DNA of 34,781 bases from the NCBI GenBank assembly GCA_031272035.1, contig JAISUO010000076.1:1-34781 (forward strand). The letters run 5' to 3'. Positions 2,471 through 34,338 of the stretch are shown here, in pieces (the stretch's first letter is position 1; each line of letters starts with the position of its first letter). The DNA comes from Synergistaceae bacterium (GTDB lineage: Bacteria > Synergistota > Synergistia > Synergistales > Aminobacteriaceae). A program made the position numbers and the translations under genes. The notes under the pieces are model-generated. The model had not been told where the DNA came from. It saw nothing but the letters and a program-made list of their open reading frames with translations, and did no database searches.

Positions 2471-3640
2471 TTATCTCACATTATGTAAAACTTCTCCCTC
2501 GCGCAGAAGCGCCACGTTTCCCGTTTCGTTCGAGAAGGGATTTTCTTCGGCGTCAGCGGAGGCAGCGGTGACGAAAACCTGCCAGCCGGAGCCTGTCAGC
2601 GCTTGGCCCATCAGACGGCGACCCTCTCCGTCCAGCTCGGCGGCGATGTCGTCCAGCAGGAGAATCGGTGTCACGCGCATTCGGGAGTGAATCACCTGAC
2701 CGGCGGCCAGCACCGACGCGGCCACGGTTCTGCGTTTCTGCCCCCGGCTGAGGGACTGGGACGCCGGACGGCCGAAGCAGGAAAAAAGCAGATCGTCCCG
2801 GTGGGGGCCCATCAGCGGAATTCCCGCGCGACGCTCTCTCTCGAAATTTTCTCTCAGGTCGGCGGCCAGACCAGCCGCAGCGTCCGCCGGGTCCGAAGGG
2901 TCGAAGGTCCGGGTCGAGCCTCGGTGGTCCAGATCCAGTTTCAGCCCTCGGGGCAAAAGACCAAAGTCCTGAAGCGCGAAGGCCTCCTTCAGAGCAGCCG
3001 CGGTTTTCCACCGAACGACCCGAATCCACCCCCCGAACCGGACCAGAGGCAGGGCCGTGGCCTCCAGAGCCGAGGGGGCGGGGCAGGGGGAGCGCAGCAG
3101 GGCCGACCTCTGACGCAGAATTTTCCGATACTCCGCGAGACGCCGGGCGTAAAGGGGCGACAAAAGAGCGCAGAGCCGGTCCAGAAAGAGACGGCGCAGG
3201 GAGGGCGAGCCATCCAGAAGCCCGATGTCTCTGGGCAGAAAAACAAAAGCGGGCAGCAGGGCCCGAAGGGACGAATAGGTCGCCCGTTCTCCCTCCACGG
3301 AAAAGGAAATCCGGGAGGAAATCGACGCCCGAACCTCGACCTTCCGCTCTCCCTCCGCCCGCGCCAGAAGGAAGGTTCCCGTTGGATTCTTTGACCCCGA
3401 AATTTCAGTGGAATCCGTTATTTCCGTTTCCTGAGAATCCTGCCCGTCGGGCCAGGTGACCAGAGACGAGGTCCGATTTCCCTCAAAAGCTCCCCAGCCG
3501 CACAGCACGGCCAGCGCCTCCAGAAGGTTGGTTTTTCCGGCCCCGTTCATCCCCAGGATGACGTTGAGCCCCGAATGCCAGGAAAGACGGCAGGGCTTCA
3601 GATTTCTAAAACCTCTCCAGACGGTCTCCGCAATTCTCAC
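2471..3640 (-). CDS. recF: DNA replication and repair protein RecF
   Basis: 389-residue SMC-like ATPase that acts with RecO and RecR to load RecA at single-strand gaps. Visible motifs in order: Walker A GMNGAGKT (30-37), GPHRDD (278-283), signature LSRGQ (297-301), and Walker B ILLLDD (326-331) followed by AAELD. The protein is slightly longer than usual (about 360-370); the extra length includes a polar insertion near residues 66-90. The start is a GTG at 3640 with no clear Shine-Dalgarno sequence. The N-terminus from this start matches the family layout, with FRNL just after the first strand. The start codon lies at the end of a 12-base tandem duplication (see 3642-3665). It lies 80 bases downstream of dnaN in the usual dnaA-dnaN-recF order. 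Confidence 0.95.
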   Translation of the reverse strand: MRIAETVWRGFRNLKPCRLSWHSGLNVILGMNGAGKTNLLEALAVLCGWGAFEGNRTSSLVTWPDGQDSQETEITDSTEISGSKNPTGTFLLARAEGERKVEVRASISSRISFSVEGERATYSSLRALLPAFVFLPRDIGLLDGSPSLRRLFLDRLCALLSPLYARRLAEYRKILRQRSALLRSPCPAPSALEATALPLVRFGGWIRVVRWKTAAALKEAFALQDFGLLPRGLKLDLDHRGSTRTFDPSDPADAAAGLAADLRENFERERRAGIPLMGPHRDDLLFSCFGRPASQSLSRGQKRRTVAASVLAAGQVIHSRMRVTPILLLDDIAAELDGEGRRLMGQALTGSGWQVFVTAASADAEENPFSNETGNVALLREGEVLHNVR

Positions 3641-3720: not shown

Positions 3721-5070
3721 TCAGGCGTCCGTTTCCGGCATTTTTTCCGGCTCCGAAGTTTCTGCCGGCTCTGCCGTTTCCGCCTGCGCCGGCTCGGACT
3801 TTGCGCCTTTTTCTTTTTTGCCCGAACGACGCGGGGCTTCAGCCTCAATTACTATTTCCTCCTTCAAAGTTTCCGGAGCTTCGTCCTCTTCCGGAGGGGT
3901 GGAGTCTGCGGCGGCTTCCTCCCCCTCTTCCTCCTCCTCGGGCTCTAGCAGATCCTCGTCGGCCACCCGCATGGGCATGAGCATGTAGAGAAAATCGTCC
4001 GCTCCCTGTCGGATGAGGGTCATCTGCCCCTGGTCACCGTTGAGGTTCATACAGACGTCGTCCGCCCCCAGAGACTTGAGACCGTCCTGAAGATAGCCCA
4101 CGTTGAACCCGGCCCGCATGGATTCCCCGTCGATTTTCGCGTCCAGATACTCCACGACGGTGCCCAGTTCCGGGGCGCGGCCCGTCATTTTCACCCGCCC
4201 GCCCGGAGAAAACTGCATCACCACGAGGCGGCTGTAGGAGCGGACGATGACGTCCACGCGCTCCAGAGCCGACAGCAGGGCGTCCCGCCTCAGAATAGCC
4301 GTAGTGGTGCTGCCGGGATTCAGAACCCTCTCGTAACTGGGGAAGGAGGACTCCACCCGACGCACCGAAAACTCCAAATCTCCCATCTGGAACCAGGCCA
4401 GCGAGCCATCCCCGAGGACACGCACGGGAACATCCGACGACTGGGCGGCGAGAAGGCGCTGCAGCTCTCGAAGAGCCGACAGAGGCAGAAGCATGTCGGA
4501 ATTTTGTTCCCCCTGACAGGTACACTTTGAAAGAGAGAGCCGCCGCCCGTCCGTGGAGACCACCTGAAAAAGGTTCCCCTGAACCTGAAGCAGACAGGCC
4601 CCCAGGTACTTCGGAAAATCGTCGGTGGCGGAGCTGGCGATGGATCCCTCCGCCAGAACCCTCAAAAGCTCCCCTCCGGTGAGGACGCACAAACTCTCCG
4701 CCCCCTCGCTTTTGGGCAGCTGAGGAAAATCCCCCACCGGCCAGGTGGTGAAACGGGTCCGGTTCCGTCCCATGCTCAGAACACCCCGATTTCCCTTGAT
4801 CTCCACCTTCAGGGTGTCCACGGACGCCTTCTTGAAAAGCTCCCCAAGAAGTTTCACCGGAAAAATGGCGGAACCCTCCTCCGAAACGGCGATTCCCCCC
4901 GCCACGCAGCGAATGGAGGTCTTCAAATCCGTGGCCTGCAGGTATACCCGGTCGTTCTCCGCACTCACCAGAATCCCTCCGAGAGCGGCCACCGTGCTTC
5001 TGTCGCTGCTGGATCTCTCGGCCATCTGCCACCATTTCATAAATTCTGAGCGAATAATATCTATTTTCAT
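3721..5070 (-). CDS. dnaN: DNA polymerase III beta sliding clamp with long acidic C-terminal tail
   Basis: 449-residue processivity clamp. The start is the ATG at 5070, preceded by AGGAGGGAG; the same frame can be extended upstream to 5112, but that ATG lacks a ribosome binding site and the added residues do not look like clamp sequence. Residues 1-368 are an ordinary beta clamp, ending in the canonical FLYMLMPMR that forms part of the client-binding cleft. Most bacterial clamps stop within one or two residues of this point. Here about 81 further residues follow. They are very acidic at first (EPEEEEEGEE, 376-385), with a short basic patch RRSGKKEKGAK (414-424) and then a Glu/Pro/Ala-rich end. 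The tail is low complexity and probably disordered. The gene lies between the origin and recF. A frameshift artefact is unlikely because the tail ends in one clean frame with a normal intergenic gap. Confidence 0.96.
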   Translation of the reverse strand: MKIDIIRSEFMKWWQMAERSSSDRSTVAALGGILVSAENDRVYLQATDLKTSIRCVAGGIAVSEEGSAIFPVKLLGELFKKASVDTLKVEIKGNRGVLSMGRNRTRFTTWPVGDFPQLPKSEGAESLCVLTGGELLRVLAEGSIASSATDDFPKYLGACLLQVQGNLFQVVSTDGRRLSLSKCTCQGEQNSDMLLPLSALRELQRLLAAQSSDVPVRVLGDGSLAWFQMGDLEFSVRRVESSFPSYERVLNPGSTTTAILRRDALLSALERVDVIVRSYSRLVVMQFSPGGRVKMTGRAPELGTVVEYLDAKIDGESMRAGFNVGYLQDGLKSLGADDVCMNLNGDQGQMTLIRQGADDFLYMLMPMRVADEDLLEPEEEEEGEEAAADSTPPEEDEAPETLKEEIVIEAEAPRRSGKKEKGAKSEPAQAETAEPAETSEPEKMPETDA

Positions 5071-5130
5071 ATGATTTCTCCCTCCTGGGTTATCCTCAAG
5101 ACTTTCTTTCACAGCTTCTTTTACAGTTTT

Positions 5131-5183
5131 TTATATATAAAAACAGTAACAGAAGTAATAAGAGAGAACAACTCTGTGGATAA
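5131..5183 (-). other. Candidate DNA unwinding element: DnaA box, DnaA-trio-like triplets, AT-rich DNA
   Basis: A perfect DnaA box (5175-5183, minus orientation) is followed, after 13 bases, by eight consecutive triplets at 5161-5138. On the plus strand each has the form NAR (TAA, CAG or AAG). Read 3' to 5' this is the [G/A]AN pattern described for DnaA-trios, on the strand complementary to the box. An AT-only stretch (5131-5143) comes next. The order of parts matches the basal unwinding system of B. subtilis. Assignment is by pattern only. Confidence 0.6.
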
Positions 5184-5218
5184 GTCGGTCGCCCCCTTTA
5201 ACGGCGGACTTTCATTTC

Positions 5219-5302
5219 CTGTGGAATACCTGTGAAAATCCTGTGGGCCGAATGTGGACAACCGGAATAACTTTCCAGATTCCTTTCGGATGCTGTGGAA
5301 AA
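5219..5302 (-). repeat. Helically phased TGTG array of weak DnaA-like sites
   Basis: TGTGG or TGTGA cores begin at 5220, 5231, 5242 and 5253, exactly 11 bases apart; a further TGTGGAAAA begins at 5294. All have the same orientation as the perfect box at 5175. Matches to the 9-base DnaA box range from 5 to 8 positions. Even spacing near one helical turn puts all sites on one DNA face. Confidence 0.55.
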
Positions 5303-5431
5303 CTCAACTTGTCCACACCTCCGTCCACACTTTTTTACACAGGAAATTCACAGGGTTATCCACAAAAAACACGCCTCGCAACACAATTTATATTCTATAA
5401 CTGTTATATTTCATAATATGTATCTCGCAAT

Positions 5432-6769
5432 TTACAGTTTGCTCCGGATGCTGTCCACAATATTCCTCAGTTTTTCGTCGTCCCTGAGAAGCTGAGAGAT
5501 CTTTCTCTGGGCGTGGATGACCGTCGTGTGGTCCTTTTTTCGGAAGGCCTGAGCCACCTGGTTCAGGCTGGAGTCCGTGTGCTCCCGGCAGAGGTACATG
5601 GCGACCTGTCGGGCCATGGCGATTTCCGCGGTTCTCTTGTTGCCGGTCAAATCCTCCACGGTCATTCCGAAGGCCTCTGCCGCCATAGCCTGAATGTCGG
5701 CCAGAGTGGCGGGGTTCTTCAAATCCGACTTCAGGATGTCCTTGAGCCAGGTGGAGGCGCTGTCGATGCTCACCGGCTCGGCGTTCAGCTCGGAGCAGGC
5801 GATCAGGCGGTTGAGAGCTCCCTCCAGCTCTCGGATGTTACTGGGAATACGGCGGGCCAGAAAATCGATAACCTCGTCCGGAATTGAGCATTCCCTCAGG
5901 GCGGCCTTTTTCCTCAGTATGGCGATTCGGGTTTCGATGTCGGGAGGCTGGATGTCCGTCACCAGCCCCCAGGCGAAGCGGCTGAGGAGACGGTCCTCGA
6001 TATCGCGCATTCCCGTGGGCGGGTGGTCCGAGCAGATCACGATCTGCCGGTTGGCCCCCCTCAGAGCCTCGAAGGTGTGGAAAAATTCCTCCTGACTGGA
6101 GTTTTTCCCCGCCAGAAACTGGATGTCGTCCATGAGGAGGATGTCCACGTTCCGGTAGCGGTGCTTGAACTCGTGTCCCTGCCGGAGCTGCAGCGACTGG
6201 ATGAACTCGTTGACAAATTTTTCGGTGCTGAGGTACACCACGCTCAGATTGTGCTTTTTTTCCAGCGCGTGATGGCAGATGGCGTGCATCAGGTGGGTTT
6301 TCCCCAGACCGACGCCTCCCCAGATGAAAAGGGGATTGTAGGCCTCCCCGGGGCTCTCCGCCACGGCCAGGCTGGCGGCGTGGGCCAGACGGTTGGACTT
6401 GCCCACGACAAAAGAAGAAAATACGTAATTCGGATTCAGAGTGGTGTTGGAGGGGTTGGGTTTCCCCACCGCCTTTTCCGCCCTCTTTTCCCATCCTGCC
6501 CTTTTTTCCTCGTCCTCCGGCTCGGTGGAGGTCTCCAGACGAATGGAGGAAACCTCCCCCAGTTCCTTTGCGGCGCGGTTCAGCTCGCTGAGGTAGAGCG
6601 TTCCGATACGTTCCTTCACAAAAACATTGGCGACGTCCACAACCAGCACGTCGTCCTCCACATCCGTGGGCGAACAGGTTGTGAACCACAGGTCCGCCGT
6701 TCCCTCGGGAAGGCGGGACGTCGCCCGGTCGATAATGCTCTGCCACAGGGTCTGCAGGTCCTTTTGCAC
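5432..6769 (-). CDS. dnaA: Chromosomal replication initiator protein DnaA
   Basis: AAA+ initiator of about 445 residues that binds DnaA boxes and opens the origin. Domains in order: an N-terminal domain I with the tryptophan-rich start (LWQSI, later LWFTT); a variable charged linker (about residues 80-112); the AAA+ core with Walker A GGVGLGKT near residue 151-158, Walker B DILLMDD near 209-215 and sensor region SRFAWGL; and the DNA-binding domain IV with signature DHTTVIHA near 413-420. The frame also offers a GTG three codons upstream (6778), but the GTG at 6769 has AGAGGTG at a good distance while the upstream one has none. Boxes on both sides of the gene and one inside its likely promoter suggest autoregulation. 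Confidence 0.96.
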   Translation of the reverse strand: MQKDLQTLWQSIIDRATSRLPEGTADLWFTTCSPTDVEDDVLVVDVANVFVKERIGTLYLSELNRAAKELGEVSSIRLETSTEPEDEEKRAGWEKRAEKAVGKPNPSNTTLNPNYVFSSFVVGKSNRLAHAASLAVAESPGEAYNPLFIWGGVGLGKTHLMHAICHHALEKKHNLSVVYLSTEKFVNEFIQSLQLRQGHEFKHRYRNVDILLMDDIQFLAGKNSSQEEFFHTFEALRGANRQIVICSDHPPTGMRDIEDRLLSRFAWGLVTDIQPPDIETRIAILRKKAALRECSIPDEVIDFLARRIPSNIRELEGALNRLIACSELNAEPVSIDSASTWLKDILKSDLKNPATLADIQAMAAEAFGMTVEDLTGNKRTAEIAMARQVAMYLCREHTDSSLNQVAQAFRKKDHTTVIHAQRKISQLLRDDEKLRNIVDSIRSKL

Positions 6770-6851
6770 CAGTTTCACCTCTAAAAGTTATTCCCAGAAT
6801 TTCCCACAACTTATCCACAGGCGAAACACGCTCGTGGGGTCTTTTGGGGTA

Positions 6852-6882
6852 ATTATACACTTATCCACATTCATAAACCCAA
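6852..6882 (-). promoter_or_regulatory. Candidate dnaA promoter with DnaA box in the spacer
   Basis: On the minus strand a TTGGGT (6882-6877) and a perfect TATAAT (6857-6852) are separated by 19 bases. The spacer contains the perfect DnaA box at 6861-6869, and another box (6888-6896) lies just upstream. Binding of DnaA here would block RNA polymerase, the usual negative feedback on dnaA. The -35 is weak and the spacer long. Confidence 0.5.
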
Positions 6883-7020
6883 GTTTCTGTGGATAAGTTG
6901 CGTTCGCGGGACTGCGTTCTTTTCCCCAAAAATCGACGCGCCCCAAATCAACACAGGGACTCTAATGGTATCATACAGAAATTATGGATTGCATCGCCGA
7001 TAAATCTGAGGCATCATAAC

Positions 7021-7054: not shown

Positions 7055-8335
7055 TTGAAAAATATGTCTGTTTATCTCAACAACGCCGCCACCACTTGGC
7101 CGAAACCTCCCTGCGTGTCCCGGGCCGTAGCGGATTTTATCATCTCGGGGGGAGCCAGCCTGGCCAGAGGAACCGCGTCGGAGCGGGACATGAAAACCCT
7201 TTCTCTGGTTCTGGAGTGTCGGATTCTTCTGGCTCGGCGGTTCGGGGGCTTCGAAAATGGGGATCCCCGCTACGTCACGTTCTGTTCCGGCGTCACCGAG
7301 GCTCTGAACCTGGTGCTGAAGGGTTTTCTGTCCTTCTGTTCTTCCCGCCGTTCTTCCCATGAGGGCCGACCCCTTCGGGTTCTTTCCTCCCAAATGGAGC
7401 ACAACGCCGTGGTGCGGCCTCTGAGGGGACTGGAGCGGCAGGGGGTGAGGACGGAGTTTCTTCCCTGCGACCCCGACGGCTTCCTCCGGCCGGAGACGGT
7501 GAAGGAAGCTCTGGCGGCGGAAAAAGCGGATTTGATGGTCCTCAGCCACGCCAGCAACGTCTGCGGGACGATCCAGCCTCTGCCGGACATCGCGGAGCTC
7601 TGCGGCGCCTTCGACGTTCCTCTGGTGGTGGACGCCGCCCAGACGGCGGGAGCTTTATCCTTCGGAAACTCCTTCGAAAAGGAGGGAGAGCCGGATTTTC
7701 GGGCGGCGGACTGGAACTTGGCGGCCCTCTGCTTCACCGGTCACAAGGGGCTCATGGGCCCCCAGGGCACGGGAGGCGTTCTCTGGAGGCCGGATTTCGC
7801 CGAGCGGACGGCTCCTCTGGTAGAAGGGGGGACCGGCAGCTTCTCCCAAGTGGAGTTTCAGCCCTCCGACATGCCGGACAAATTCGAGGCCGGAACCCCC
7901 AACCTTCCGGGCATCGCGGGGCTTTACGCCTCCCTTCTGTGGCTGGAGGAAACCGGCGTGAAAACGGTGGAGCGAAGGGAAAGGGAGATGGGGGAGCGGC
8001 TGCTTGAAGGCCTGAAGGAAATCGACGGGGCCGTCCTGGGGGGCCGGTCCTCAATGGAGGGTCGGCTGCCGGTTTTTTCGGTGAATTTTCGCGAGCCCGA
8101 CGTTTTCAATAAATCGGGTGAGTTTGGTGAATTTGTGGACAACGGCGTTCTGGCGGACCGGCTTTCACAGGAGGGGTTCGAGACCCGACCGGGCCTGCAC
8201 TGCGCGCCTCTGGCCCACCGGACCCTGGGGACGTTCCCTCAGGGAAGCCTGCGGGTTTCGCCGGGGTATTTCAACGAGCCGGAGGACATTGACGCTTTTC
8301 TGGAGGCGGTGAAGAGATGTATACGAGAAAACTGA
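7055..8335 (+). CDS. PLP-dependent class V aminotransferase, cysteine desulfurase-like
   Basis: 426-residue PLP enzyme of the SufS/IscS superfamily. Features: N-terminal VYLNNAATTWPKP; HASNVCGTIQP near 165-175; PLP-contacting VDAAQTAG (192-199); Schiff-base lysine K231 in FTGHKGLMGPQGTG; and a conserved cysteine C383 in GLHCAPLAH, placed like the sulfur-accepting cysteine of desulfurases. The combination resembles the uncharacterised family (TIGR01977 type) rather than housekeeping IscS. The start could be TTG 7055 (4 bases after GGAAGG) or ATG 7064 (13 bases after); spacing favours TTG. The next gene starts inside its 3' end, a 19-base overlap, so the two are co-translated. Sulfur transfer from cysteine is a plausible activity; the partner is unknown. 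Confidence 0.88.
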   Translation: MKNMSVYLNNAATTWPKPPCVSRAVADFIISGGASLARGTASERDMKTLSLVLECRILLARRFGGFENGDPRYVTFCSGVTEALNLVLKGFLSFCSSRRSSHEGRPLRVLSSQMEHNAVVRPLRGLERQGVRTEFLPCDPDGFLRPETVKEALAAEKADLMVLSHASNVCGTIQPLPDIAELCGAFDVPLVVDAAQTAGALSFGNSFEKEGEPDFRAADWNLAALCFTGHKGLMGPQGTGGVLWRPDFAERTAPLVEGGTGSFSQVEFQPSDMPDKFEAGTPNLPGIAGLYASLLWLEETGVKTVERREREMGERLLEGLKEIDGAVLGGRSSMEGRLPVFSVNFREPDVFNKSGEFGEFVDNGVLADRLSQEGFETRPGLHCAPLAHRTLGTFPQGSLRVSPGYFNEPEDIDAFLEAVKRCIREN

Positions 8336-32199: not shown

Positions 32200-34338
32200 T
32201 CAGCGTTTTCCCGGGAGAGCGGGCTTTTTGGGAGCCGCGTTCCGTTGATTTTGAGTCTCCCGCAGCCTGAAGCGGGACAGAGCTTCGCCCAAGGACTGGG
32301 CGTGTCCGGTCATGATTTCCGCCTGTCCCGAGATGACCTGAGCGGTTTTTGCTGTGGCCTCGGTTTGTTTTTGCATTTCGTTCATCGTTTCATTTATTTC
32401 GACGGTGGATTTTGTGGCTTTGTCAATGGCATGAGCCACTTCTTTGCTGGAAGCGGCCTGCTCCTCCGCCACTGCCGCGATGTTCTGGATCGAATCATTG
32501 GCCTTGCGGATTTCGTTCATGGCCTGGCTCAGCTCGTTCTGGGCCGCGGTCGCCTGAACCAGAGTTTCGCTGAGAGCGTGACCGGCCTGAGTCGTCGCCT
32601 TTATGCTTTCCTGCGCCTGTGTTTGCAGGTCAACGATGATCCTGTTCACGTTTTGCGCGGCCTTCGCGGATTCTTCCGCAAGTTTGCGCACCTCTTCCGC
32701 CACCACCGCGAACCCGCGCCCCACGTCGCCGGCCCGGGCCGCCTCAATGGCCGCGTTGAGCGCCAGCAGGTTGGTTTGATCGGCAATGCCTGTAATGACC
32801 GTCACGAACCCGCTGACGTTTTCGATGGAATCGACCAGCTGCCGTGTTTTGTCCTCGCTGTCCTTCGCGTTTTTATCCACATTTTTCATCCCGTCGATCA
32901 CGGTGTTGACCATCTCCGTCGCTTTTATCGCGGCATCGGTGGTACGGGCAATGGAGGACGCGGTATCCGTCGAGGACTGAGCCACGGTGTCCGCGCCGGC
33001 GCTCATTTCCTCCACGCCCGCGTTGCTTTCTTCGAGGGCGGCGCCGTTTCCTTCGCTCAGCTCATACACGTGCTCAAAATCGTTTTTGACCTTTTTCATG
33101 GAGTCGTTTGTCTCCCCGGCGATGGAGGTCAGCTTTTCGGCCACGTCGCCCAGTTCCTCAGCTACCGTAACGACGTTGCGCATGGCGGATTCCTGACCTT
33201 CCACCATGTCGGAGAGCGCGCCGACCAGATTTCCAAGCTCGTCTTTGCCTTCGTAGCCGAAATCCGTCCGCTGGATGGTAAGGTCGCCTTCCTGACACCG
33301 TTTCGCCAGCTCCACGATTGTGCGGAGGGGTTTGGAAATGGCCCGGGAAAGGAAGATGGCGATCAGAAGGCCAAGAAGGAGGGAAATCGCTCCGGAGGAG
33401 AAAAGAAGGGTCACGGTGGAGTGCACCAGGTCGATGTTTTCGTCGCTCACGGTTTTCACCGTGGTCTGGGCGAAGGCGCTCACTTCCGCGACTTTGTCGT
33501 TGTAGGTCCCGCTCAGAAGCACGAGGGAGTTTATGGCGTCGTTCTGGGCCTGGATCGCCGTGGCCATCAGGTCCAGTTCGGTCACGTAGCTTTTGAGAGC
33601 TGCGGACACCTTCTGTATCATGCGCCTGCGCTCCTCGTCGGAACTGCCGTCATGCACGTTCTGGGCCCATTGTTCCAGAGTCGCGCAGGTGTCTTTGGCC
33701 TTCAGGAAGGCCTGAGGATCGTTGGCCCCGCTGGCCGCCGTGATCTGACGCCGGAGGTCCAGGGCGTCCCCGTACATCCTGCCCACTGAATAAATCTGTT
33801 CCACTCTCTGCGCTTTGCTCATGTGGTCGTTTTCCGCAACCGCCGCGTTGCGGTAACTTTCCAGAGCTTCCTGCGTGGTGGAGGTCATCACGTTTCCCGC
33901 CTTGACCAGCTCGAGCCAGCTGGCGTTTTTCTTTCTGAGGGCTTCATGCAGCCGGTTCAGGGAATCCACAAAGTTTTTGTGGATGGGCAGAACGTTTTCC
34001 CGCACCATCTTCGGGCTCTTCAGGTCCGGATTTGCGGCGCCCAGGGCTTCCATGTCGGCCAGGGCTTTATTCAGGCCCGCGACCTTCACATCGTCGTCCT
34101 TCATGGTCTCCTCGGTTCCTGTGTACCGTGTTTCCCGGGTTGTCATAAAAACCGCGGTGGCGGCGCTTTCAATGCCGCTTTTGATTTGCAGTGCCGGAAC
34201 CACCTTGCTGCGCAGAAATTCGCTCTTTTCTCTGACCTCCGATAAATCCATCCACGTAACGAACACCGCCGCCGCGAACACCAGCAAAACAACGCCAAAT
34301 CCCAGCAGAAGTTTGGAAGTCATCTTCAAATTTCTCAC
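32200..34338 (-). CDS. Methyl-accepting chemotaxis protein
   Basis: 712-residue transmembrane chemoreceptor. Membrane helix 1 is at residues 9-29; a large mostly helical periplasmic sensor covers about 30-305 (longer than a simple four-helix bundle, possibly a double-bundle type); helix 2 is at 308-330; HAMP at about 331-383; then the cytoplasmic signalling coiled coil. The conserved hairpin tip is [20 protein letters not shown] (518-537) with [18 protein letters not shown] after it. No C-terminal NWETF-type pentapeptide for CheR docking is present; the end is basic (KKPALPGKR). The start is GTG 34338, with GGAG nine bases upstream; ATG six codons in is possible. It is convergent with the peptide uptake operon. 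Ligand unknown. Confidence 0.94.

Follow-up and report, generated by a model that had tools for sequence, protein, structure and literature searches.

Where the chromosome is opened for replication is the question raised by the DNA between dnaA and dnaN in a Synergistaceae bacterium (contig JAISUO010000076.1, of which 34,781 nucleotides were analysed; hereafter, the window). A basal unwinding system (BUS) has been defined as a DnaA box, a spacer of up to 16 bp (peaking at about 10–13 bp, with 13 bp the most common length) and at least three triplets with a central adenine, and was predicted in 1755 of 2070 species, or 85 percent (Pelliciari et al. 2021, PMC8287927). A tandem second DnaA box accompanied 57 percent of predicted cases and is not obligatory (PMC8287927); the Synergistetes receive no mention in that paper's main text. 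The initial annotation of the window had proposed that eight successive NAR triplets, 13 bases from a perfect DnaA box on the correct strand and in the correct order, would constitute such an element.

Results

Structure of the putative unwinding module

Direct reading of the letters bore out both the triplets and the box. The perfect DnaA box TTATCCACA lies on the minus strand at 5175–5183 (plus-strand letters TGTGGATAA) and is the predicted docking box of the module; adjoining it is a 13-nt spacer at 5162–5174, which reads GAGTTGTTCTCTC on the minus strand and GAGAGAACAACTC in plus-strand letters. The triplets occupy 5138–5161 of the plus strand, with trio 1 at 5159–5161, and read TAA AAA CAG TAA CAG AAG TAA TAA, i.e., eight DnaA-trios of the form 5'-NAR-3' (3'-RAN-5'). 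Taken away from the box these are 3'-AAT, AAT, GAA, GAC, AAT, GAC, AAA, AAT-5', none of the eight being the exact consensus 3'-GAT-5', and the box strand in order is TTATCCACA GAGTTGTTCTCTC TTA TTA CTT CTG TTA CTG TTT TTA TATATAAAAAA. The triplets had also been described as followed by AT-only DNA; an AT-only stretch does exist and is likely to continue the melted region, but it spans 5127–5143 and so overlaps trios 7–8 (TAA AAA, 5138–5143). Since both of these outermost triplets sit within it, they were not considered diagnostic, and six triplets were taken as solid. A GAG at 5162–5164 might be read as a ninth NAR triplet, which would leave a spacer of 10 nt; comparison with relatives supported the 13-nt frame instead.

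The window agrees with each of the criteria of Pelliciari et al. (PMC8287927): where these allow a correctly oriented box of up to two mismatches, a spacer of no more than 16 bp and at least three consecutive NAN triplets, it has a perfect box, 13 nt and a tract of eight NAR triplets, well over the minimum of three. The sole candidate for a tandem second box is TTGTTCTCT, at 5163–5171 on the minus strand after a 3-nt gap, which has four mismatches and is a possible but weak match. The spacer word GAGTTGTTC (or a close variant), at 5163–5174, was common to near relatives in genera g1, g12, g13, g14 and g19; it takes the position at which a tandem second DnaA box is usual and, in most of the phylum, easier to recognise.

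Position of the module within the likely origin region

Both dnaN (449 aa, 3721–5070) and dnaA (448 aa, 5432–6778) are encoded on the minus strand, and a recF-like gene, named by sequence and order, is third in the dnaA-dnaN-recF order (2471–3640, minus strand). There were five perfect DnaA boxes within 5175–6896: two between dnaA and dnaN, i.e., the docking box and one facing the opposite way at 5356–5364 (plus strand), and three upstream of dnaA, at 6811–6819 and 6861–6869 (plus strand) and 6888–6896 (minus strand). Boxes with one mismatch were present at 5253–5261 (TTGTCCACA, minus strand), 5294–5302 (TTTTCCACA, minus strand) and 5309–5317 (TTGTCCACA, plus strand). A trio run beside the plus-strand box at 5356 was sought, and there was none there. 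Another perfect box, at 32873–32881, is isolated and far from the origin. Because the five perfect boxes are split to both sides of dnaA, a bipartite origin is suggested, of which the cluster at 6811–6896 would be the second half; alternatively, that cluster may serve dnaA autoregulation.

Position 7121, near dnaA, marks the cumulative GC minimum of the window. The complete genome of a relative (G032) switches sign at dnaA (2.284 Mb): its GC skew was -0.099 over the 14 kb leading up to the gene and +0.107 over the 15 kb that follow. Every stretch sampled between 1.32 Mb and dnaA had a negative skew, and most of those beyond had a positive one. The dnaA-dnaN position, the skew switch in G032 and the minimum in the window all point to a replication origin at this locus.

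Within such an origin, melting could conceivably take place at the other AT-rich stretch, at the dnaA end of the intergenic region (about 5384–5428), served by the box at 5356–5364 and with the triplets being incidental. This box is perfect and points to a stretch of 78 percent AT (5380–5430), but no triplet run follows it, and the AT fraction among relatives in the window's family was inconsistent past the dnaA stop codon (0.41–0.73), against 0.62–0.93 on the triplet side. Melting at the dnaA end was judged unlikely, and the triplet tract is preferred as the site of unwinding.

Conservation of DnaA residues predicted to contact the triplets

The best solved relative of the window DnaA was B. 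subtilis DnaA 8btg, the BUS structure, and its best named match was from a metagenome-assembled genome labelled Synergistaceae (JAISWV010000341.1, 68 percent). The protein keeps equivalents of N187, I190, K222, E228 and R264, all of which matter in B. subtilis by experiment; there, the central adenine has been attributed to N187 and the guanine to R202 and E228. The exceptions, both conservative, were lysine at the Arg202 position (K205) and leucine at the Ile193 position (L196), in which the window DnaA differs from that of B. subtilis. Apart from these two, the residues equivalent to those that contact the triplets (N187, I190 and E228) are retained, as are K222, the phosphate contact, and R264, the arginine finger. 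The codon of residue 205, at 6164–6166, thus specifies lysine where B. subtilis Arg202 contacts the trio guanine; lysine was found at position 202 in 58 of 109 genomes of the phylum, and the choice of lysine or arginine had no significant link with guanine in the first trio position (P = 0.13).

Conservation of the triplets among Synergistota

Comparisons were confined to the phylum, where 127 of 188 genomes had a DnaA, and 109 dnaA-dnaN intergenic regions were extracted. The layout was scored as present when a box of no more than two mismatches and a set spacer were followed by two leading triplets that fitted and by at least four fitting triplets of six. By this measure it preceded dnaN in 85 of the 109 regions from DnaA-bearing Synergistota, and the window's family, with 33 regions, had it in 31; controls over the same regions returned 1 (reversed), a mean of 0.75 (shuffled) and 11 (opposite strand, under the loose criterion).

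A fixed frame of 13 nt, which made no use of the triplet letters, showed, for the window's family, box-strand T at a frequency of 0.47 in the first position of the triplet, 0.83 in the second and 0.14 in the third, a contrast reached by none of 2,000 shuffles. Outside the family the signal in this frame was weak, with 109 of 2,000 shuffles reaching the contrast, because the spacer is often 12 or 4 nt long there and trio 4 is often degenerate; the frame was therefore also set from trios 1–2 alone. Close relatives kept the triplet periodicity, the property for which the initial annotation had proposed comparing them. The tract of a relative from the same genus (G099) reads CTA TTA CTA TTA TTG CTG TTT TTA, and differs from the window at five of the 18 positions of the first six trios, none of them central. 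Across independent same-genus pairs the central base was the least substituted (15 of 81 changes, P = 0.002), with a slight bias in that the frame was chosen with the tract. These patterns support selection on triplet phase, i.e., on the central adenine, in the window's family, and more weakly outside it.

With the frame set from trios 1–2 alone, and with weighting by genus across 39 Synergistota genera, the central base had a frequency of 0.68, 0.47, 0.95 and 0.79 for trios 3, 4, 5 and 6, respectively. Trio 4, and sometimes trio 3, was often degenerate (e.g., CGA, GAC, CAA, TCA), while trios 5–6 returned in phase; this gap was absent from the window and from its closest relatives. As the genera are not independent, the weak point at trio 4 was treated as a lead.

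Likely loss of the module in a largely DnaA-less genus

The window's family includes a sister genus (g11; genomes G046–G088) in which DnaA domain IV was found in only three of 43 genomes; the other 40 had nothing but weak AAA+ look-alikes. By comparison, 40 of the 43 had dnaN and 41 had DnaB; among the 30 best genomes, dnaN was detected in 29 and DnaB in all 30. Of the 29 dnaN loci read in g11, 27 belong to genomes that lack DnaA and the other two to G070 and G080. None of the 27 DnaA-less loci had a box-trio module before dnaN. G080, in which dnaA adjoins dnaN, alone kept the module among the 29; in G070 the two genes are on different contigs. GC skew was nearly flat in five DnaA-less g11 genomes (mean size 0.024 over 40 20-kb stretches); four Synergistota genomes with DnaA had a mean size of 0.076, although one of these (G021) had no clean switch. 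It is fairly likely, on these comparisons, that g11 lost DnaA and the unwinding module together and that its chromosome is now copied independently of DnaA, perhaps from dispersed origins.

The same loci bear on the possibility that something else keeps the triplets conserved, for instance a dnaN promoter or a site of DnaA-regulated transcription. The tract lies approximately 60–150 nt ahead of the dnaN start, both in the window and in the family, and AT-rich words such as TACTAT look like a -10 box; a promoter, however, would account neither for a period of three bases sustained through six triplets nor for a constant spacing from a directional DnaA box, and the tract vanishes along with dnaA although dnaN stays. 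A transcriptional role as the cause of the conservation was considered very improbable, but promoter and unwinding functions could be present at the tract together.

Rarity of the arrangement

When the 107 nt that separate the box from dnaN were shuffled 20,000 times with dinucleotides preserved, no shuffle placed eight triplets within 16 nt of the box; with shuffling limited to the 50 nt nearest the box, four in 10,000 did (P = 4e-4). No other run of at least six triplets occurred in the 34.8 kb of the window when both strands were scanned. In the draft genome (3.18 Mb, 122 contigs), a box with six triplets at 3–20 nt identified a single site, its four matches being overlapping registers of this one. 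Across the phylum, 26 of 188 genomes had a match to a perfect box with five triplets. The expected dnaA-dnaN site accounted for most of these matches, while several were elsewhere (e.g., G037, G084, G115, G117, G118, G147); the reversed pattern, run as a control, produced four single matches. While NAR is a permissive motif and the origin region is AT-rich with numerous boxes, the shuffles, the single genomic site and the phased conservation among relatives make it exceedingly improbable that a pyrimidine-rich, AT-rich stretch merely reads as NAR beside one of many boxes by chance.

Discussion

The box, spacer and triplets very probably form the unwinding module of oriC. The sequence itself is accompanied by rarity, by conservation in phase with the triplets, by DnaA contact residues that have been kept and by an origin-like skew switch. 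The layout agrees with the B. subtilis system, to which the initial annotation had likened it, in its strand and order, in its spacing and in lying between dnaA and dnaN. Like the incC BUS of B. subtilis (DnaA-box#6/#7 plus DnaA-trios), it combines a box, a short spacer and central-adenine triplets on the same strand and in the same order (PMC6669920, PMC10721633), and it too adjoins dnaA. Unlike in the B. subtilis BUS, the putative second box is degenerate and displaced, and there is no exact 3'-GAT-5'. The unwinding elements of Helicobacter pylori and Thermotoga maritima are likewise described as placing a box beside single-strand DnaA motifs (PMC8235120, PMC10316083).

By analogy with B. 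subtilis, from which filament assembly, strand choice and melting are all inferred, domain IV of DnaA would bind the perfect box at 5175–5183, probably with help from a second, weak contact within the spacer, and DnaA would be directed towards dnaN. Further DnaA-ATP subunits would form a helical filament on the plus strand, which DnaA would hold single-stranded, each engaging one triplet from 5161 down to 5138 and gripping its purine and central adenine. Because such a filament would hold and stretch the strand, the tract and the adjoining AT-only DNA (5127–5143) would melt, and so provide single strand for helicase loading.

As a discovery the element is modest, being a well-supported further example of the known Bacillus-type layout and no new mechanism; it nonetheless offers a compact, testable candidate origin. 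The comparisons extend the evidence for box, spacer and trios across the Synergistota through a conservation test that avoided choosing the frame by eye, and the weak point at trio 4 across the phylum raises the question of how strictly the DnaA filament reads each triplet. The comparative value of g11 is that relatives which lost DnaA lost the module too. Free-living bacteria without DnaA have been described in cyanobacteria (PMC7198777), while no report of DnaA-less Synergistota was found within an incomplete coverage of the literature. If the loss in g11 is real, the genus would represent a DnaA-independent lineage of ordinary genome size outside the cyanobacteria and endosymbionts, and would be a natural knock-out that supports the trios as DnaA elements.
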